Below the pieces are notes generated by a model. That model was not told the origin of the DNA and did no database searches. It saw only the letters and a program-made list of their open reading frames with translations. The translations under genes were made by a program, and so were the position numbers. Below are positions 3,574 to 27,125 of a stretch of DNA of 28,556 bases, piece after piece. Within the stretch, counting starts at the first letter, position 1. Each line of letters begins with the position of its first letter. This DNA is from a virus: positions 1-28,556 of IMG/VR virus record IMGVR_UViG_3300012228_000013; one strand, 5' to 3'.

Positions 3574-6500
3574 CTACATCCCCTTGTATGTCTTTTGGAT
3601 ATCCAAATACTTCTGCCTTGCAGTCTTGGGGACGGCCTTTATTTCAGTGAACTCTGGCTGCGACATGCGGAGCATCCGGCGCTTCAATCCAGTGACAAAT
3701 GAAGAACCGAAATCAATCCTATACTCCGCACGAGAACTTGCGTTATGCTTCTTCATATCCGCGAGAATCTCAGCCAAGGCATTTGTATCTTTCTCCAACA
3801 ACGCCTTCGCCATTTGATTCTCGAACTTTGAGCGAAGCTGGATATTGTAGTCCCGAAGCATTTGCTCTCCCGCTTCCCTGTCATATGCCCTTGACAGCTT
3901 TGCAGGGGTAAAGCCAATGCCACGAGCAGCGATGTCGGTCGCAGTTGCACCTGACACAACCGGTTCACCAGCGGGCGTCCTGAAGGCTTTCTGACGATCC
4001 AGCGCGGTTCTAGTTGCAACACTGGCTCCCTTGAATGCCTCTGGAATTACTTGCTCCAGGGCACGCCAAGGATCACCTTCCGCCGCAGCTATTGCCATCT
4101 TCGTTGGCCGAACGAGCATGAAATCTGGTAGCACTCCGCCAATGACTTTCGCCGCTCCTTCAACGGGATCGCTGAACATTTCACTTGGTACAACGTCCCC
4201 GTATCCAGCGGAACCGCTTAGATCAATTCCTTCATCCGGCCTGCCATAGAGAACACCAGCGCCATACGGCAATCCACGCAACGCCAACTCGCCAGCCTTT
4301 CCAAACTTTCCCCGCACTTCACCAGGGATATCAATCCCTGCATACCGTCGAGCTAGGTCAACCACCAGCTTTGCACCAGGTATTCCCATTGCACCTGCAA
4401 CAGCTCCCATCGTTGCAGCTCTGGTTGAAAACACCTTGAAAGCATTCAACGCCTCTGGCGTGACTGACTTGCTTTTGATAATTTCAGTTGCTACCGTTTT
4501 CAGATCCTCCTTGAACTTGCTCATCATATTGTACTGGAACAAACGGAACGTTCCAAGTGGCGCACCCCATGATGAACGAATGAACCGAGGACGATCTGCT
4601 TTGCTGTATTCCAGGTTAATGTCTCTCGTGAGTTGCTTGGCGAATTCATGCGCTTTCTGTCCAGCAATTCCTTTATCCGCTGCAATCCTCCGCCCTGCAA
4701 TATAGCTCGCCAATCGTAGCCGATCCTCCGCAGCACCGAAGAAGTATCCAGAAATATCAGATAACGTCTTGAATGCAGGAGCACGGCCACCGATCAATCC
4801 CATCATTTCCTGTACGTTGGGATTTCCAATCACCCCTTCATGCCGGGCCAGTTTAATCCCTGCCTGCACCGCTGGCGACAACCGTGATTCCTTGAACGAG
4901 TCCCGCATTGAACCAGCCCAAATGCCCAAAGCGTTCTTGGAATGTTTCTGCATTTCAGGCAGGCCAATTGTTCCATATCCAGTCAAGTTCACCAATGCAG
5001 ACGACATCTTCCCGCCAAGGTAGAAGTGAAACAATCCTTCCCGCAAGGCACCAAAGTCACCGGATGGATTATAAACATCATCCGTGTACTTCGTGCCAAT
5101 CGAGAACAATTCATGCCGTGGCTTCCAATTCGCCTGCACTTCCGCTAATTCAGCCGGCGTGAAATGGCGCCTGAAATTCACCGGTAATTGGTTCCACTTC
5201 GGCTGATTAACGAGCATATCCAACAACTTATTCGTGTCGTACTTGCTCTCCCGAACAGCAATGTAATGCGAAATGGAACGCAGGTAATCTGCCGTATTGC
5301 GGGCCAGGTCAGTAGAATATCCAGGCACTCCCTTTTGTTTCCGCAGATGTTGCACGAAGCGAGATGCGGAAACGCCAGACTGTGCAAGCAACTTCGCAAC
5401 ACCATACTGGGATGCCATCCAGTGTTGAGGCCCGAGTTGCTGTTGCAGCCACTGATCCACACGATGCAGACCAGCAAACGTGGTAACGTCGAATCCACGG
5501 AGCAGTTCTGGCGCTGTTTGTGCCAATTGACCAGCATTGGAAATCCGCTCCCCAGGACCAAGGTTTGATTGGATTTGCCCCTTTGTTGCTCTATGTGCAG
5601 CCTTGGATTCCTGTGTGTAATAGCCGGTTAGATTCCCCGCTTGATCCTCTACTGCAATGAAGTATTTCCCAAACCGTGAAAGTGGAGCGTAGCCTGGATG
5701 GTTCATCTGTGCGGTGGCCTGTGCTGCAACGGTTGGATTAATACCACTCATGACAAGCCCAGTTTCCAATCGCCGCAACGTGTTCTTCATCGTTTGCTGA
5801 TAGGCATTGTAACCATTGATTTCATCCGGCGTCAATCCTCGTGCCCGCAGTTGCGCTGGTGAATATTCAACCTTGGCAATGGTGCCATCGAAGATCGTCG
5901 TGTCCAATCGTGGAGAGCGGGCAGCGAAGTATGGCTGCAATCTCTCCATAGCCTGTGACGCGATACGATTCCGCTTATCCATGAACGCCAGGGATTCATT
6001 CACAATAGGCCGATACATCTTGAACTTCTCTCCCAGGATATGCGGTATCGTGAACCAACGATCAATCTTCTTGCTTCCATCATCAATCATCTTTGATGGA
6101 ATTTGCCCACCCGCCTTAAAATTCGCCATCCACTGAGCAGCATTGCGAGACTTGTTTCTAACCCAACGGCCAGCGCCAGCAGCAGCGAGTAAGCCACCAC
6201 CCACAGCAACCGCGCCAAGCAATGCTTTACCCGGATTGAATACGTGAGTTGATTCACTTGTTCCATCTTCCCCTGCCTCCGCGTATGTATCGAAGCCTTC
6301 CAACGAACCTGCAACAACGCCAGCGAGTCGTAATGCTCCAGGCTTTGCACTATTCACTAGATGATTCGACACCCGGCTCAACAGGCTATCAGCTTCTGCA
6401 CTTACCTTGTCTGCAATATGCGGTGACAATGGACGAGCAGCAGCAGCCACTTTCCGCAACCGAGCTACTTCATCCAATGTATCTTGCATGTCCTTTGCAA

Positions 6501-7848
6501 CGTTGAATTCCCCTCTGCTTGATGCCACACTTCCACGGTTATGGATAAGCAACTGATCCGCCACGGAAGAAACAATACGTTGAGAATCCTTCTTTTCTTT
6601 CGCGGCCATCCCTTCCAGCAATGCACTTTCTCGTTCACCCATTCCCAGTGTAGCACGGCCTTCATCTACCTCGCGGGTCAACTTCTTTGATCGCTGCATC
6701 CGAGACAATGCTTCATCTAACAAGGCAACAGTTGGCTGTACTTGCTCAGGGGCAGCAATTGCAACTAGCTCCTTTGTAACAGGGAATGCATATTGTGGTT
6801 CTGTTTGCGGTGCCTGTCCTTCAAACACTCTCCCCTGTCCTAAAGCCCTCTCCGGGGTGAGTGGTTGCAATCCTGGCCGTGGCCATACCTCAGATCCCAA
6901 TGGCGCAGCTGGCAATTCTGGACGTGGAGCGGGGAGTGCAATTGGGGGTGGAGGAGGATTCCCTGCCTCAATCGCCTGCATTGCAGATGGCTCCGGTCCC
7001 GCTTGCAACATCCCCGCTATTGTCTGTTGTGGTCTTGTTACAGTTGCCGGTAGTTCAACTTCGGGGATTCTGAAATTTGGCTCAGTTGGGATAACTGCCG
7101 GCACACCACCAACCTGCCGAGCAGGCAATCCGCTGAATGGTAGATTCTCTTTCGTCGGCCAATAGCTCCCTGGAATCTGGAACGGTTCCTGCGGCGTAGC
7201 GGTGGAACGAGGCACGTTATATGCACCAGGGTAATCCTGCATCGACGCACCGACACGAACCTGTCCTGGCAATGGAGCCTGTGGCCTGAACGCCCCACCA
7301 ACGCCACCAGCCAGCGTACCAAATCCACCACCAGCCAACATCCCAGGGAACACTCCAGGCCATCCAGCTTCTTGCCCACCCTGGATTGCACCAAGCAATG
7401 AACCTTCCGTTGCACCACGGATCACTGCACTTGTCAATGGCACAAGCTCTTGCCCGATGACTTTTCCTGTGATTGCCTCTCCCGCAGCACCAACCCGACC
7501 AAGCAATCGTGGACCAATGAGCGCGAGTCTTGCGGGCAATGATGTGGGATTCAACATTGAAGCTAGAACCTGTCCTGTTACATCGGTTCCAAGCTCCAAT
7601 GACTTCCGCAAGCCACTCTTCTCTTCCCGTGGTGTTGCACCAGGAACCTGTGGGCCAAGGCCCATTGTCAGATTACGGACCACATAATCAGCAATATCCG
7701 CCATCGTGCGGACACCAGCTTCCCGCAATGCACCACCACCATACTTCACATCCTTCTCCTCCTCCGTCATCATTGGATTGGCGTCAGGAGGTTCGATGCG
7801 AAATTGGAATCCCTGTTCTTCCTGTGGTTCGTTGATCTTGAATTCCAC
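3574..7848 (-). CDS. Giant internal virion (ejection-type) protein, 1424 aa
   Basis: This is the largest gene in the window. Residues 1-70 are acidic. Residues about 145-187 are glycine-rich and hydrophobic. Residues 195-360 are a proline-rich linker (PPPPPIALPAPRPELP). Residues 360-500 look helical. Residues 541-560 form a hydrophobic segment (ALLGAVAVGGGLLAAAGAG). The remainder is a long, mainly helical region containing EYSKADRPRFIRSSWG followed by FRLFQYNM, a pattern I associate with large polyvalent or internal virion proteins of podoviruses. No lysozyme or protease motif is evident. The start is GTG with TAGGAG upstream. A protein ejected into the host to help DNA entry is the likeliest role; a tape-measure-like role is less likely because no tail-tube genes are seen. 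Size and position support virion location, but the function is inferred. Confidence 0.65.
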   Translation of the reverse strand: MEFKINEPQEEQGFQFRIEPPDANPMMTEEEKDVKYGGGALREAGVRTMADIADYVVRNLTMGLGPQVPGATPREEKSGLRKSLELGTDVTGQVLASMLNPTSLPARLALIGPRLLGRVGAAGEAITGKVIGQELVPLTSAVIRGATEGSLLGAIQGGQEAGWPGVFPGMLAGGGFGTLAGGVGGAFRPQAPLPGQVRVGASMQDYPGAYNVPRSTATPQEPFQIPGSYWPTKENLPFSGLPARQVGGVPAVIPTEPNFRIPEVELPATVTRPQQTIAGMLQAGPEPSAMQAIEAGNPPPPPIALPAPRPELPAAPLGSEVWPRPGLQPLTPERALGQGRVFEGQAPQTEPQYAFPVTKELVAIAAPEQVQPTVALLDEALSRMQRSKKLTREVDEGRATLGMGERESALLEGMAAKEKKDSQRIVSSVADQLLIHNRGSVASSRGEFNVAKDMQDTLDEVARLRKVAAAARPLSPHIADKVSAEADSLLSRVSNHLVNSAKPGALRLAGVVAGSLEGFDTYAEAGEDGTSESTHVFNPGKALLGAVAVGGGLLAAAGAGRWVRNKSRNAAQWMANFKAGGQIPSKMIDDGSKKIDRWFTIPHILGEKFKMYRPIVNESLAFMDKRNRIASQAMERLQPYFAARSPRLDTTIFDGTIAKVEYSPAQLRARGLTPDEINGYNAYQQTMKNTLRRLETGLVMSGINPTVAAQATAQMNHPGYAPLSRFGKYFIAVEDQAGNLTGYYTQESKAAHRATKGQIQSNLGPGERISNAGQLAQTAPELLRGFDVTTFAGLHRVDQWLQQQLGPQHWMASQYGVAKLLAQSGVSASRFVQHLRKQKGVPGYSTDLARNTADYLRSISHYIAVRESKYDTNKLLDMLVNQPKWNQLPVNFRRHFTPAELAEVQANWKPRHELFSIGTKYTDDVYNPSGDFGALREGLFHFYLGGKMSSALVNLTGYGTIGLPEMQKHSKNALGIWAGSMRDSFKESRLSPAVQAGIKLARHEGVIGNPNVQEMMGLIGGRAPAFKTLSDISGYFFGAAEDRLRLASYIAGRRIAADKGIAGQKAHEFAKQLTRDINLEYSKADRPRFIRSSWGAPLGTFRLFQYNMMSKFKEDLKTVATEIIKSKSVTPEALNAFKVFSTRAATMGAVAGAMGIPGAKLVVDLARRYAGIDIPGEVRGKFGKAGELALRGLPYGAGVLYGRPDEGIDLSGSAGYGDVVPSEMFSDPVEGAAKVIGGVLPDFMLVRPTKMAIAAAEGDPWRALEQVIPEAFKGASVATRTALDRQKAFRTPAGEPVVSGATATDIAARGIGFTPAKLSRAYDREAGEQMLRDYNIQLRSKFENQMAKALLEKDTNALAEILADMKKHNASSRAEYRIDFGSSFVTGLKRRMLRMSQPEFTEIKAVPKTARQKYLDIQKTYKGM

Positions 7849-16134: not shown

Positions 16135-16156
16135 TTGAGTTCTCCCCTCATGCTAT

Positions 16157-16170
16157 GCCCATCTCTGGGC
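16157..16170 (-). promoter_or_regulatory. 5-bp hairpin with GAGA (GNRA) loop after the capsid gene
   Basis: In the mRNA GCCCA-GAGA-TGGGC forms a 5-bp, GC-rich stem closed by a GNRA-type tetraloop. It lies in the 59-nt gap between the capsid stop and the decoration gene, about 12 nt before the SD GGGGAG. It is short, but the tetraloop and the recurring position before an SD make it worth recording. Confidence 0.35.
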
Positions 16171-16193
16171 TGTTGACGCGGATCGTTATTGCA

Positions 16194-17162
16194 CTACGCG
16201 ATAACGATGTCCGCCAGGACTCCCTGCATCCGGCTGTTGGTGATAGTCAGGTTGCCCTTCGTCACAACCTGTGCAACGCGGTCCAACTGGTTCGGAATGG
16301 GCTTCCAGTCGGTCATCATGAAATCGGCATTGGTGTCAATGACCAATTCCAGATACCGCTCGTTAAGCATGTACGCGGTAAGCGCAGGACACGATGGGCT
16401 GAACGTGAGAGCGCATCCCTTGTACTGCAACGCCTCGAAGCCCGCATCGCCCATGCGAGGATCATAGATCCGCATGAACGTGGTGAGTCCAGCCTCATAC
16501 CACTCATACACCGCGCTGTGCGTGAGGATGAGCGTTGGATGGTCATTGCCGATGGAGCACTGGTTGTAGAGAATCCGGAAGTTGAATGCTACCGGATTGT
16601 CACCAGTGGGAAGTGCGGTAACAGACCATGTACGAAGCTGGTTCTGCCACCACAAAGCAGAGGAACGGTCAATACCACCAACCGTTCCTACCGTTGGCGT
16701 CTTGCTGACGAGATTGAGCAACCCGTCAAAATCCAAGGCGCCATTGCCCGAGCCATCTCCAAAGAGCATGGACTCGAACTTGTCCACCATGGAAAGTTCC
16801 AGGTTCTTCAACTTCGCCTGCGCCAGCGACATGATCTGGTTTTTCCCGACGTTGGTGGTATCGTCGGAGAACAACCGGACCACGCTGCCTGCAATGTACT
16901 TGTAGTTGAACTGCGCGGTGGTCAGCGGATCAGTATTGCCAATGTTCACAGTGCCCCCAGGACCCAGGGATTGCACCGTGTTGTTCTTGGCGTACATGAT
17001 CGGTTGACCGATCCACCGGGCGCCAGTCTCACGCCGCACACGTTCCTTGCTGTAAAGCCAGTACCAGAACGGTGTGGCGTTGAAGATGGCATCAATTGCC
17101 TTTGGGCGCATGATGTTCCAGGTGGTGGTGTAGAGACTGTCCAATTGCTCAGTCAGAGTCAT
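16194..17162 (-). CDS. Major capsid protein, HK97 fold (322 aa)
   Basis: Position after a portal and a scaffold-like gene, length, and sequence character identify the coat protein. The N-terminal arm is helical (LTEQLDSLYTTTWNIMRPKAIDAIF). Residues 40-65 carry E-loop-like strands (ETGARWIGQPIMYAKNNTVQ). A long spine-like helix follows at about residues 108-135 (KNQIMSLAQAKLKNLELSMVDKFESMLFGDG). The A-domain includes NDHPTLILTHSAVYEWYEAG and the end reads IPNQLDRVAQVVTKGNLTITNSRMQGVLADI. This resembles capsid proteins of podoviruses whose subunits carry no protease-cleaved delta domain, with a separate scaffold. No protease gene is present nearby. SD AAAGGG precedes the ATG, and only 3 nt separate it from the scaffold gene. 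Confidence 0.85.
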   Translation of the reverse strand: MTLTEQLDSLYTTTWNIMRPKAIDAIFNATPFWYWLYSKERVRRETGARWIGQPIMYAKNNTVQSLGPGGTVNIGNTDPLTTAQFNYKYIAGSVVRLFSDDTTNVGKNQIMSLAQAKLKNLELSMVDKFESMLFGDGSGNGALDFDGLLNLVSKTPTVGTVGGIDRSSALWWQNQLRTWSVTALPTGDNPVAFNFRILYNQCSIGNDHPTLILTHSAVYEWYEAGLTTFMRIYDPRMGDAGFEALQYKGCALTFSPSCPALTAYMLNERYLELVIDTNADFMMTDWKPIPNQLDRVAQVVTKGNLTITNSRMQGVLADIVIA

Positions 17163-17165
17163 GGC

Positions 17166-17846
17166 TTAGCCCTTTCCGAAAACCTTGTCAAACACTAACC
17201 CGGCAGCGTCACCATAGGTTTTTGGGGTTTTCCCTTTATTCTCCCCCAAAATATCCGCAGGCCCGCTACCCAACTCAGATGGCGTAGGTCGTACTGCGTT
17301 ACTGCTCCGGCGAGGTCGTTCAGCGTTTACCTTCTTCAACTCTTTTCCCGACGCTTTTTCAAGTCCTATTGCAAGCAGGTACAACGAGGACGCATCCAAT
17401 TGCGGGTACGCAGACGAGAGCTTCACCATTGCGTCCTGGTAATCCCAGAAGTCCTCGAATTGCTGCTCTGCTTCCCGCAACTGATCCTTCAGTGAAACCT
17501 TGGTTGTCTCCGCACGCATGGGATCAACCAGTTTCTTCACTTCTCCAAGGATGGTAGTGACCATGTACTTCGCCAGACCTTCATTGTCCATGTTCTCGAA
17601 GTCTGGCTTTCCTTCCTTCGCCGGCTCTCCACCCTTGTCGTCCGGGCTGTCACCCTTTGCAACAGCCTTGAGGAATGATGGATCGGTGAGCAATGACTCA
17701 AGCGATCCAATCTTCTTCCCCATATCAGCAACCTGAGTTCCAAGCGTCTGATTGTCCTTGAGCAGTTTCTCCACCTGCTCCGGGCTCAAATTCTTCTGCT
17801 CTCCATCCACCACTTCTTCTTTGCCAGTTTTCGGATCAATCGCCAT
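17166..17846 (-). CDS. Scaffolding protein (226 aa)
   Basis: Highly charged, helical and proline-poor in the middle, the protein sits directly before the capsid gene, the classic place for a scaffold. Residues 20-60 are a coiled coil (PEQVEKLLKDNQTLGTQVADMGKKIGSLESLL). An acidic linker follows, then helices (LAKYMVTTILGEVKKLVDPMRAETTKVSLKDQLREAEQQFEDFWDYQ is one continuous helical region at about 92-140). The basic end (KKVNAERPRRSSNAVRPTP) could bind the inner coat surface. Scaffolds guide procapsid assembly and leave before or during packaging. No protease motif is seen, so exit without cleavage is expected. The SD is AGGAG. Confidence 0.75.
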   Translation of the reverse strand: MAIDPKTGKEEVVDGEQKNLSPEQVEKLLKDNQTLGTQVADMGKKIGSLESLLTDPSFLKAVAKGDSPDDKGGEPAKEGKPDFENMDNEGLAKYMVTTILGEVKKLVDPMRAETTKVSLKDQLREAEQQFEDFWDYQDAMVKLSSAYPQLDASSLYLLAIGLEKASGKELKKVNAERPRRSSNAVRPTPSELGSGPADILGENKGKTPKTYGDAAGLVFDKVFGKG

Positions 17847-24535: not shown

Positions 24536-24805
24536 CTATTCAGGTCTAAGGATTGACCGTGCAGCGTCCGGGATTGCTTCAAGACATTCTTTGTAATTCG
24601 GTGCTTTTGCACCATAGGCGCCGACGTAAAGCATACTAACGTCAGCGTAGGGGCGGGAGTTTCCACGCATGTAGAAACAGCCGTTGGCATTGAGTTCTTT
24701 TGTTTGTATCGCCCACTCTTGCATGCTCGTTGCTTGATATGAAGTTGCCATTGTGCAACCAACGAAGGATAGACAGATCAATGCAAGGATCAAGAACTTC
24801 ATCAT
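24536..24805 (-). CDS. Outer-membrane-type lipoprotein (89 aa)
   Basis: The start at 24805 overlaps the terminase stop as ATGATGA and follows AAAGGA. The N-terminus MMKFLILALICLSFVGC is a lipoprotein signal with a lipobox-like FVGC (Phe at -3 is less usual). The mature part is hydrophilic with a second pair of cysteines (in NANGCFYMRG and NYKECLEAI) that may form a disulphide, suggesting export to the periplasm. Phage lipoproteins of this size act as outer spanins or superinfection-exclusion factors. No inner spanin partner lies beside it, although the two-TM and coiled-coil membrane proteins elsewhere could play that part. The function is uncertain. Confidence 0.65.
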   Translation of the reverse strand: MMKFLILALICLSFVGCTMATSYQATSMQEWAIQTKELNANGCFYMRGNSRPYADVSMLYVGAYGAKAPNYKECLEAIPDAARSILRPE

Positions 24806-26454
24806 GCACGTCCTTTCAATGGTGGGGCTATTTTCAGCAATTCCTCCAATGTCATTTCCCGCGGTCCGCTTTGATTCCATATCCACGGTGATTTTGGGTT
24901 CCTGCTTGCATTCCCCTTGCGCTCCAATTCTTCCATGATGGATTCCAGGGAGAATGGATCATTGATCGTTGTTTCAGTTCTTGTTGGATACTTTGCCATT
25001 TGCACAGCATAGGCAAGAGCATCCAGAAGGTCATAGTGTTCAATGGCTGGAAACCACGCTAGTTCTTTTATCAAATCCTTATATTCCCGCTTGATAAAGA
25101 TCCTACCGCTAGCGAATACCGGTTGCAAGATCCCACTCACCCGCGCGCTCTTCTTCTGTGTCGTTATTGGCTTCAGCTCTTGTACGTTGAAACTGATATT
25201 GTACTTCCTCATTGCTTCCCGTAATGGATAAGTGAGGATTTTCTGGAACGCAACGAATTCAATTCCAACCCGGCTTTTCCACACCATATGCTGCCGGATG
25301 ATCTCCTCTATCAATTCGTCCGTTCCAAGATTAGCTTTTCGTGCCTCAAGCACATATATGTTGCGCTCCGCATCAGTGCCAACAGTTGCAATTGCTGAAA
25401 ACGAATCTCCACGGCCAGTAGCTGGATCGACAGCAGTAAAGCAACGGAGATGCAAAGGAGCAATTTCGTAGTACCTGTTCCAATCAGGGAGGAAGGATCT
25501 GGAATCTTCATGCGTTGGATTGTTGAGGTACTGGCACGAAAAAATGAACGGACCTTGATCCTCCAAGATTGCATTAAGATGATCCAAGGTGAATTCATCT
25601 TCCCCTAGTCCATTCGTTGGGAATATCGCTTTCCCATCTTCAATCGCTGATCGTACAATGCACTCATACGCAAATGGATTGCTGTTCCCCAAAGTCTGTT
25701 TGCTGGAATTGTCAAGGATATGTTGGATGAGGTCATTATGACTCCAGCGCGTCCCAATGATCGTATCAATACCCCGAGCTGGAGATACGAAAAGAGAATA
25801 TGAGTGCTTGTGGAAATCAACAACTTTCTGCATTTGCTCTGGATAGAGGATGTGATCTTCATTAACGAGGTCATCCTTTATCAGTTCATCATAGTGCCGG
25901 CTGACCGCGCTACCTCCAATTCCAATGCTCTCAATAGACGCCTCTGAATACGTCTTTGGACGGACAATTTCCATCTCCGTCGTATTCCACCGCACCTTCC
26001 CGAAATCCGGGATGAGTTCTGGAAAGAGCCATTGAAAGATCGCATTCTCTTCAAAGACACTCTGGATCTCTCGCAGGAACTTTGCAGCGTTAGTCGCCGT
26101 TGCACTTATAATAAGGATTCGTTGGTTCGGATCGTTCAGCAACTTCCACGTTGGGTACGCCTTCGTTGCCACTGTTGACTTGTAATGTCCCCGCGGCCAC
26201 ACAATCAACCGGCGGCGAATATCCTGGCGTTGGAGGGTCTGGCATAATGGCTTGTGCAGGTATCGTGTCATCTTGTCGTATCCAAGCACCGCCGTTGACA
26301 GGAAGAACAAGCTCTGCTTGCATCGTTGGCGCAGCATCAACCGCAACTTCTCCGCTTTCCCCGCATTCAGTCGTGACATCCCGTCCGTTATCATCTCCGG
26401 GGTCATTGAGTCTATCAGCGACTGCTTGTAGTAGGGATTGGTTGACGTGGCCAT
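24802..26454 (-). CDS. terL: Terminase large subunit (550 aa)
   Basis: The protein is the ATP-driven motor and nuclease of DNA packaging. The Walker A-like loop is WPRGHYKST at residues 86-94. Walker B is likely at SRHYDELIKDDLV (residues 185-197), with ISATATNAAKF (116-126) typical of the segment after the first ATPase motif. The coupling motif region is GTRWSHNDL. The nuclease part shows AVDPATGRGD with D343, then the end of the fold HYDLLDALAYAVQM (D475, D478). ATG 26454 is chosen for its SD AGGGAG at 5 nt; starts at 26484 and 26481 lack one. An in-frame stop at 26491-26493 prevents any further extension. The first 365 nt overlap the small-subunit gene in another frame. Confidence 0.93.
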   Translation of the reverse strand: MATSTNPYYKQSLIDSMTPEMITDGMSRLNAGKAEKLRLMLRQRCKQSLFFLSTAVLGYDKMTRYLHKPLCQTLQRQDIRRRLIVWPRGHYKSTVATKAYPTWKLLNDPNQRILIISATATNAAKFLREIQSVFEENAIFQWLFPELIPDFGKVRWNTTEMEIVRPKTYSEASIESIGIGGSAVSRHYDELIKDDLVNEDHILYPEQMQKVVDFHKHSYSLFVSPARGIDTIIGTRWSHNDLIQHILDNSSKQTLGNSNPFAYECIVRSAIEDGKAIFPTNGLGEDEFTLDHLNAILEDQGPFIFSCQYLNNPTHEDSRSFLPDWNRYYEIAPLHLRCFTAVDPATGRGDSFSAIATVGTDAERNIYVLEARKANLGTDELIEEIIRQHMVWKSRVGIEFVAFQKILTYPLREAMRKYNISFNVQELKPITTQKKSARVSGILQPVFASGRIFIKREYKDLIKELAWFPAIEHYDLLDALAYAVQMAKYPTRTETTINDPFSLESIMEELERKGNASRNPKSPWIWNQSGPREMTLEELLKIAPPLKGRA

Positions 26455-26983
26455 TGGATCTCCCTGCCGTTGGTGTAACATCATGCTCGGTCAAGCCATC
26501 TGCTGCAATATCTGCAATGAGCAACCGTTCCAGTCGCCCAAGGAACTTCTCATCAATAAGTATCGTTCGTTGCAATTTTTCAACCTTCTGAATGGGTGAA
26601 ATTCCATTCATCCCCAATCCACCCATGATCGCCTTCAACTTCACGCCTTCATTCTGGCTCTCCAACGCTATTTGCAACAAGCCATCAACCAGAAATGGCG
26701 AAGCAGACATTAAACGATCACGTGTAACTTCCACGTCCCGCTCCATGCCTTCACCGAATTGTTGAATTTCCAATTGTGCTTCAGGACTATTGAGGATCTT
26801 ATAAACGGAACCAGGACTCTTGTGGACAACCTTGGCTATGCGATACGGTGAGAACCCCTGCAAGAACAATGAAATCACAACTTCACGATCCCTTTTATTG
26901 ACAAGAGACCATGTTGGATTTTGATCCCAATCTCTACTGGAATCAATAACCGGCGGTGCTGGCAATGCTTCACTTCTTTCCAT
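26090..26983 (-). CDS. terS: Terminase small subunit with overprinted C-terminal tail (297 aa)
   Basis: Residues 30-66 contain a helix-turn-helix (REVVISLFLQGFSPYRIAKVVHKSPGSVYKIL) typical of small terminases that recognise viral DNA. Helical oligomerisation segments follow (FLVDGLLQIALESQNEGVKLKAIMGGLGM and VEKLQRTILIDEKFLGRLERLL, to about residue 160). From residue 177 to the end the gene lies entirely within the large-subunit gene in another frame. That tail is low-complexity, Gly/Pro/Asp-rich and ends TNPYYKCNGD. I prefer ATG 26983 (GGGGG at 4 nt) to the GTG 26986. The N-terminal two thirds have the usual small-terminase size (about 165-175 aa), so the tail may be dispensable. Confidence 0.85.
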   Translation of the reverse strand: MERSEALPAPPVIDSSRDWDQNPTWSLVNKRDREVVISLFLQGFSPYRIAKVVHKSPGSVYKILNSPEAQLEIQQFGEGMERDVEVTRDRLMSASPFLVDGLLQIALESQNEGVKLKAIMGGLGMNGISPIQKVEKLQRTILIDEKFLGRLERLLIADIAADGLTEHDVTPTAGRSNGHVNQSLLQAVADRLNDPGDDNGRDVTTECGESGEVAVDAAPTMQAELVLPVNGGAWIRQDDTIPAQAIMPDPPTPGYSPPVDCVAAGTLQVNSGNEGVPNVEVAERSEPTNPYYKCNGD

Positions 26984-27125
26984 CACACCCCCGGCTAACC
27001 ACGATAAACATTGGAGATTTCATTGTCACCGCAACAGCTCTCGGTGCAACATCGGGGCAAACCACGCCCCTCATAATTGCAGCCGTCATTCCTTTGAACC
27101 TCTCCATAATCTCTCGGTTCGACAT
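26970..27125 (-). CDS. First gene of the operon, unknown small protein (51 aa)
   Basis: The start at 27125 follows GGAG at 6 nt and lies about 45 nt downstream of the proposed transcription start, so it would be the first gene of the operon. The frame continues upstream to 27425 without a stop, but that part runs through the promoter and operator repeats and is unlikely to be translated. The 51 residues (MSNREIMERFKGMTAAIMRG, then VAVTMKSPMFIVVSRGCDGKK) have a short helix and a beta-like half with two cysteines. The end overlaps the small-terminase start by 14 nt. Real coding is likely from SD and coupling; the function is unknown. Confidence 0.5.
   Translation of the reverse strand: MSNREIMERFKGMTAAIMRGVVCPDVAPRAVAVTMKSPMFIVVSRGCDGKK

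Follow-up and report, generated by a model that had tools for sequence, protein, structure and literature searches.

The genes for the small and large terminase subunits, terS and terL, overlap out of frame by 365 nt in the viral DNA analysed here, and the pattern of sequence conservation makes it very probable that this overlap is genuine dual coding, in which the same nucleotides would specify both the C-terminal tail of TerS and the first 121 residues of TerL. Because selection preserves both readings, neither chance nor sequencing error is likely to account for the arrangement. The window, that is, the whole stretch of DNA analysed, comprises positions 1 to 28,556 of record IMGVR_UViG_3300012228_000013, and both terminase genes lie on its minus strand. 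The features discussed below are as follows.

24802 to 26454, minus strand: terL, terminase large subunit, 550 amino acids (phrog_38; T7 DNA maturase B, 4bij)
26090 to 26986, minus strand: terS, terminase small subunit (phrog_2538; PaP3/NV1-type structures; AlphaFold2, AF2)
26090 to 26454, minus strand: very probable dual-coding overlap, TerS C-terminal tail (121 codons) and TerL residues 1-121
26090 to 26092, minus strand: terS stop codon TAA, inside the terL codons for ...SATATN; identical site in the relatives L004, L010 and L089
26105 to 26122, minus strand: TNPYYK at the TerS end; identical peptide near the TerL N-terminus (26425 to 26442) in the other frame
26173 to 26196, minus strand: terL Walker A region PRGHYKST, part of the tail in the terS frame
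26355 to 26454, minus strand: TerL N-terminal extension of about 33 codons over the terS end; absent or much shorter in the relatives L090, L092 and L093
26460 to 26465, minus strand: Shine-Dalgarno site AGGGAG, 5 nt before the terL ATG and within the terS frame
TerS C-terminal tail, minus strand: predicted translation ...TLQVNSGNEGVPNVEVAER

Profile matches bear out the identities given to the two genes in the original prediction. TerS, which is 298 residues long from GTG 26986 or 297 from ATG 26983, matches phrog_2538 over residues 36-137 (E 1.6e-5), and its core matches the PaP3/NV1-type TerS structures 6w7t (E 5e-7) and 7joq (E 2e-9); a match to HTH_23 fell below the cut-off. A helix-turn-helix and helical core at about residues 23-161 is followed by the tail. 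Ring assembly and binding of DNA at the packaging site, the functions of the family, are putative for this protein. TerL matches phrog_38 (E 6e-81) and resembles T7 DNA maturase B (4bij), with a Terminase_6C match just below the cut-off. It contains a Walker A motif, an acidic motif, a GTRW region and a C-terminal RNase H-like nuclease, and PRGHYKST, KDDLVNEDH, GTRW, D343 and D475/D478 are conserved in the TerL alignment (A4).

The predicted extent of the overlap was likewise confirmed, as were its limits: the terL frame is open only from 26490, and the terS frame is open throughout from GTG 26986 to its TAA, with the first position of each terS codon lying on the third position of a terL codon. 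The terS stop falls 106 nt beyond the start of the PR codons of Walker A. The same layout recurs in three relatives recovered from IMG/VR scans, contigs of different datasets that together with the window form group a (TerL identity to the window 89% for L004, 63% for L010 and 63% for L089). Their overlaps measure 365, 362 and 365 nt; terS proved free of internal stops when the three source records were searched by profile, and its stop lies at the same terL codons, those for SATATN, where ACT AA is read as C/GAC TAA or equivalent. An indel introduced in sequencing or assembly, or a single recent loss of a stop, could in principle have fused an out-of-frame tail to terS, and the original prediction had named both the indel and the relatives that would betray it, in which terS stops near residue 170. 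Relatives with a terS ending at about residue 165-170 do exist (L090, L092 and L093, in which a short terS ends at the terL start), but the long form is shared by four contigs with overlaps of 362-365 nt, a single stop site and a terS frame that is purged of stops and conserved. Since L004, L010 and L089 keep both the overlap and the stop site, an artefact of assembly is excluded, and an indel or one-off stop loss of any kind is vanishingly improbable.

In a wider survey of about 80 TerL relatives, a real terS reaching or nearly reaching Walker A was found in three places only, namely group a, a second clade with overlaps of 254 nt (L011), 293 nt (L015), 290 nt (L016) and 218 nt (L019), and L027, an AT-rich (30% GC) unrelated viral contig with a different TerS and a 284-nt overlap. 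At 2655-3227 of L027, TerS enters terL in the same relative frame, with 0 stops against about 6.6 expected. In most of the roughly 70 further relatives terS ends at or before the terL start, and most of the other surveyed terS genes end 125-500 nt before Walker A. In the TerL tree the window group has support of 100/100, and nearest to it lies L090 (99/94), whose TerS is of the canonical short form; the second clade stands apart from the window group and L027 is distant. This distribution fits either repeated gain of the overlap, or a single gain with several losses plus L027; the tree labels L087 as long-overlap even though its ORF is spurious, and the count of changes is too high by up to 1. 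The overlap ORFs of L084 and L087 were rejected as spurious, as they start inside or beside terL and have no likeness to TerS, and L091 was left out of the overlap comparison since its contig begins inside terL. All relatives came from viral contigs: two scans of genome contigs gave no relative, and tblastn of TerS against isolated phages gave no match. It is worth noting that the TerL of one surveyed sequence, ctLwi270 (MW202554.1, L007), looks split at about 4790-5460 by an insert resembling an intein or HINT domain, and that its annotation lists two terminase genes.

That the terS frame is coding is indicated, first of all, by its openness. When synonymous terL codons in the window overlap were resampled 5000 times with the codon usage of the rest of terL, 7.8 stops were expected on average in the terS frame, whereas none is present and no resample (0/5000) was stop-free; the other forward frame holds 11 stops. 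Across the four members of group a, 7.7-9.9 stops were expected and 0 observed (P < 2e-4 in each), and by the same resampling the second clade (P 0.0004-0.013) and L027 (P 0.0002) are also open beyond chance. Base composition points the same way. Codons ending in T account for 12 of 96 terL codons in the overlap versus 117 of 338 elsewhere (p 1.4e-5), and the depletion holds at codons where T cannot create a stop (p 0.00035); L004 and L010 show it to a like degree and L089 less strongly (p 0.0027), and none as strong was seen in 12 non-overlapping TerL genes or 8 other genes of the window. The third-position bases of terL in the overlap resemble those usual at the first position of a codon (G 0.46, T 0.10).

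Comparison between relatives indicates that both frames are under purifying selection, to a lesser degree in the second clade, and the pattern that would have spoken against dual coding, with only terL under selection, did not appear. The pairwise figures for group a come from four related sequences, so that pairs are not independent, and the resampling nulls are simple. Synonymous differences in terL are fewer inside the overlap in 6/6 group-a pairs and significantly so in 4 (for the window and L004, 27/96 inside versus 164/372 outside, p 0.003), the deficit not being significant for window/L089 and L004/L089; no such suppression was found in the second-clade pair L015/L016 (31/63 versus 151/301). 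For each of the six group-a pairs, identity in the TerS frame is higher than under a null model with the terL protein and its synonymous rate fixed (P 0.03 to <0.0004; for example 78/121 observed versus 55.7±5, and 45/119 versus 25.3±3.6), and the same is true of L015/L016 (P 0.005). In 8 of 9 sequences the tail has a greater net acidity than under a terL-imposed null that allows no stops (P 0.014 to <0.0003). Constraint on terL is visible in the same bases, with terS third positions differing at 12/122 sites in the overlap versus 79/177 outside it (p 2e-11). A tail that is translated as a neutral passenger, with selection acting on terL only, would suit its low complexity and predicted disorder, and much of the apparent conservation of the tail does follow from conserved terL residues. 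However, the 0 stops against about 8 expected, the shortage of T at third bases, a TerS-frame identity above its null and an acidity that likewise exceeds the null in separate lineages all speak for selection on the second protein, and we regard a neutral tail as very improbable.

Low synonymous change around Walker A could also reflect a constraint on the DNA or RNA itself, such as a pac or cos site or an mRNA structure, rather than a second protein, the more so as pac phages can have their TerS binding sites within or close to terS. Yet such a constraint leaves unexplained why one frame lacks stops over 121 codons and ends at a common stop, and why its base composition is that of a first codon position and its translation acidic; moreover, no Rfam family matches the window. 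There is thus only a slim chance that nucleotide-level constraint replaces dual coding here. An antisense ORF over the overlap (26151-26591, 146 residues) is not conserved, and the antisense frames carry stops in relatives. Outside the overlap, few synonymous changes separate the window from L004 at terL codons 157-193 (about 25876-25986) as well, with counts of 3/24 and 3/25 per 25 codons.

How far the overlap extends depends on where terL begins. The likely start is the ATG at 26454, with its Shine-Dalgarno site inside terS; another ATG in the terL frame, at 26484, lacks one. A later start, for example at M17, M21 or M40, would reduce the real overlap to about 250-320 nt, and would agree with the TerL proteins of L090, L092 and L093, which begin near window residues 20-33. 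Against it, Shine-Dalgarno-like sites precede the internal ATG in 3/3 group-a relatives and therefore in 4/4 of the group, N.YY is kept close to the beginning of TerL, and the first 20 codons change little at their second positions (2/20 versus 79/177, p=0.0018). We therefore consider a later start very unlikely and retain ATG 26454; even a start at M40 would leave an overlap of about 248 nt with Walker A still covered.

The relatives without the long overlap suggest how it may have originated. In L090, L092 and L093, TerS has nothing beyond the common core, its stop falling at about window residue 165-170, and the start of TerL is displaced some 20-33 residues downstream relative to that of the window; therefore, the TerS tail appears to be an addition over ancestral terL, and the first 30 or so TerL residues an addition over the terS end. 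The TerL start of the second clade falls inside a conserved TerS beta/helix segment. Our best reading is that the overlap arose by overprinting in both directions. Overprinting that gave terS a new tail, as originally proposed, is thus supported, but it describes one direction only, as the start of terL also overlies the end of terS. An ancestral TerS of about 165 residues would have ended beside an ancestral TerL; terS would have been extended in an alternative frame over the first 90 or so ancestral terL codons, Walker A included, and the terL start would have moved about 30 codons upstream, over the end of terS. In this way about 120-130 residues of disordered, acidic tail would have been added to the C-terminus of TerS.

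The tail, noted earlier for its low complexity, is predicted by AF2 to be disordered. In a TerS model from a shallow alignment (mean pLDDT 54), helices occupy residues 23-161 and a short helix residues 184-192, while pLDDT is below 50 at residues 199-285 and most of the last 12; TerL residues 1-11 also have low pLDDT. The tail is presumably made in infected cells. Ribosomes on terS would pass through the terL start, with both proteins translated across the overlap, and terL would be initiated from its own internal Shine-Dalgarno site, which is to be expected because 365 nt from the terS stop is too far for ordinary stop-start coupling. Each subunit of a TerS ring would then carry a long, flexible, acidic C-terminal arm.

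A role for this arm may be sought in the assembly of the TerS-TerL-DNA packaging motor, or in the regulation of TerL, and we propose this tentatively, because the overlap encodes the two segments that meet in P22 and lambda. In P22, TerS residues 140-162 bind TerL residues 1-58, so that the contacting segments, the TerS C-terminus and the TerL N-terminus, are those encoded by the window overlap, and in lambda the TerS C-terminus likewise binds TerL (PMC9611059). Contact between the TerS tail and the TerL N-terminus is, by analogy, a candidate interface in the window phage. PaP3, which supplies one of the nearest solved TerS structures, is a counter-example: its TerS tail is acidic too, yet dispensable for DNA binding and TerL association (PMC7672466). 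The peptide TNPYYK occurs as TerL residues 5-10 and as TerS residues 288-293 (counted from ATG 26983), encoded by different DNA in different frames; L010 has ANPYY at both places, and N.YY is kept at the TerS end and TerL start in 4/4 members of group a. With the terL protein taken as given, the chance of N.YY at the end of TerS is 0.014-0.052 per sequence, a coincidence noticed after the fact, and we treat the shared motif as a lead only. Less likely than not is the idea that the TerS tail and TerL N-terminus are interacting halves that are co-encoded, such that one mutation could alter both sides of the contact. Such an arrangement would have arisen more than once (the window clade, L011/L015/L016/L019 and L027), mostly with an acidic disordered tail and, in the window clade, also with N-x-Y-Y at both ends.

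Known systems offer partial parallels. The PaP3/NV1-type proteins, which share the TerS core, differ in that their solved chains are 152-157 residues long. We know of no such long terS-terL overlap in P22 or lambda. By gene numbering, terS (orf1) of PaP3 is not directly beside terL (orf3) (PMC7672466). Overprinted viral proteins are likewise new sequences placed over an existing gene and kept by selection, although the cases found are mostly from small RNA, ssDNA or reverse-transcribing viruses (PMC3744397). An out-of-frame overlap in a tailed phage is exemplified by lambda Rz1 inside Rz (PMC9409062). Those are lysis genes, one fully nested in the other, whereas the window has two packaging subunits overlapping tail to head over an ATPase active-site motif.

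Overprinting as such is known, TerS tails are known as the most variable part of the protein, and it is mostly in connection with very small genomes that long out-of-frame overlaps are discussed. The window belongs to a tailed phage that maintains 365 nt of overlap across the ATP-binding motif of the packaging motor, and lineages both related and unrelated to it do likewise. A literature search, with most subscription papers outside reach, found no report of terS-terL overprinting, or of a terS-terL overlap this long or over Walker A. The case would illustrate, in nature, how new protein sequence can emerge on top of the gene for an essential enzyme, and it suggests where some of the variable C-terminal tails of TerS may have come from. 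It is also a warning that one of two genes may be cut short by gene callers that restrict overlaps.

Elsewhere in the window, a 347-residue antisense ORF (16155-17198) spans the whole major head protein gene (16194-17162) and is probably an effect of codon composition. A 1424-residue protein is encoded at 3574-7848, the second half of which matches DarB-like antirestriction proteins and large phage protein families of unknown function.
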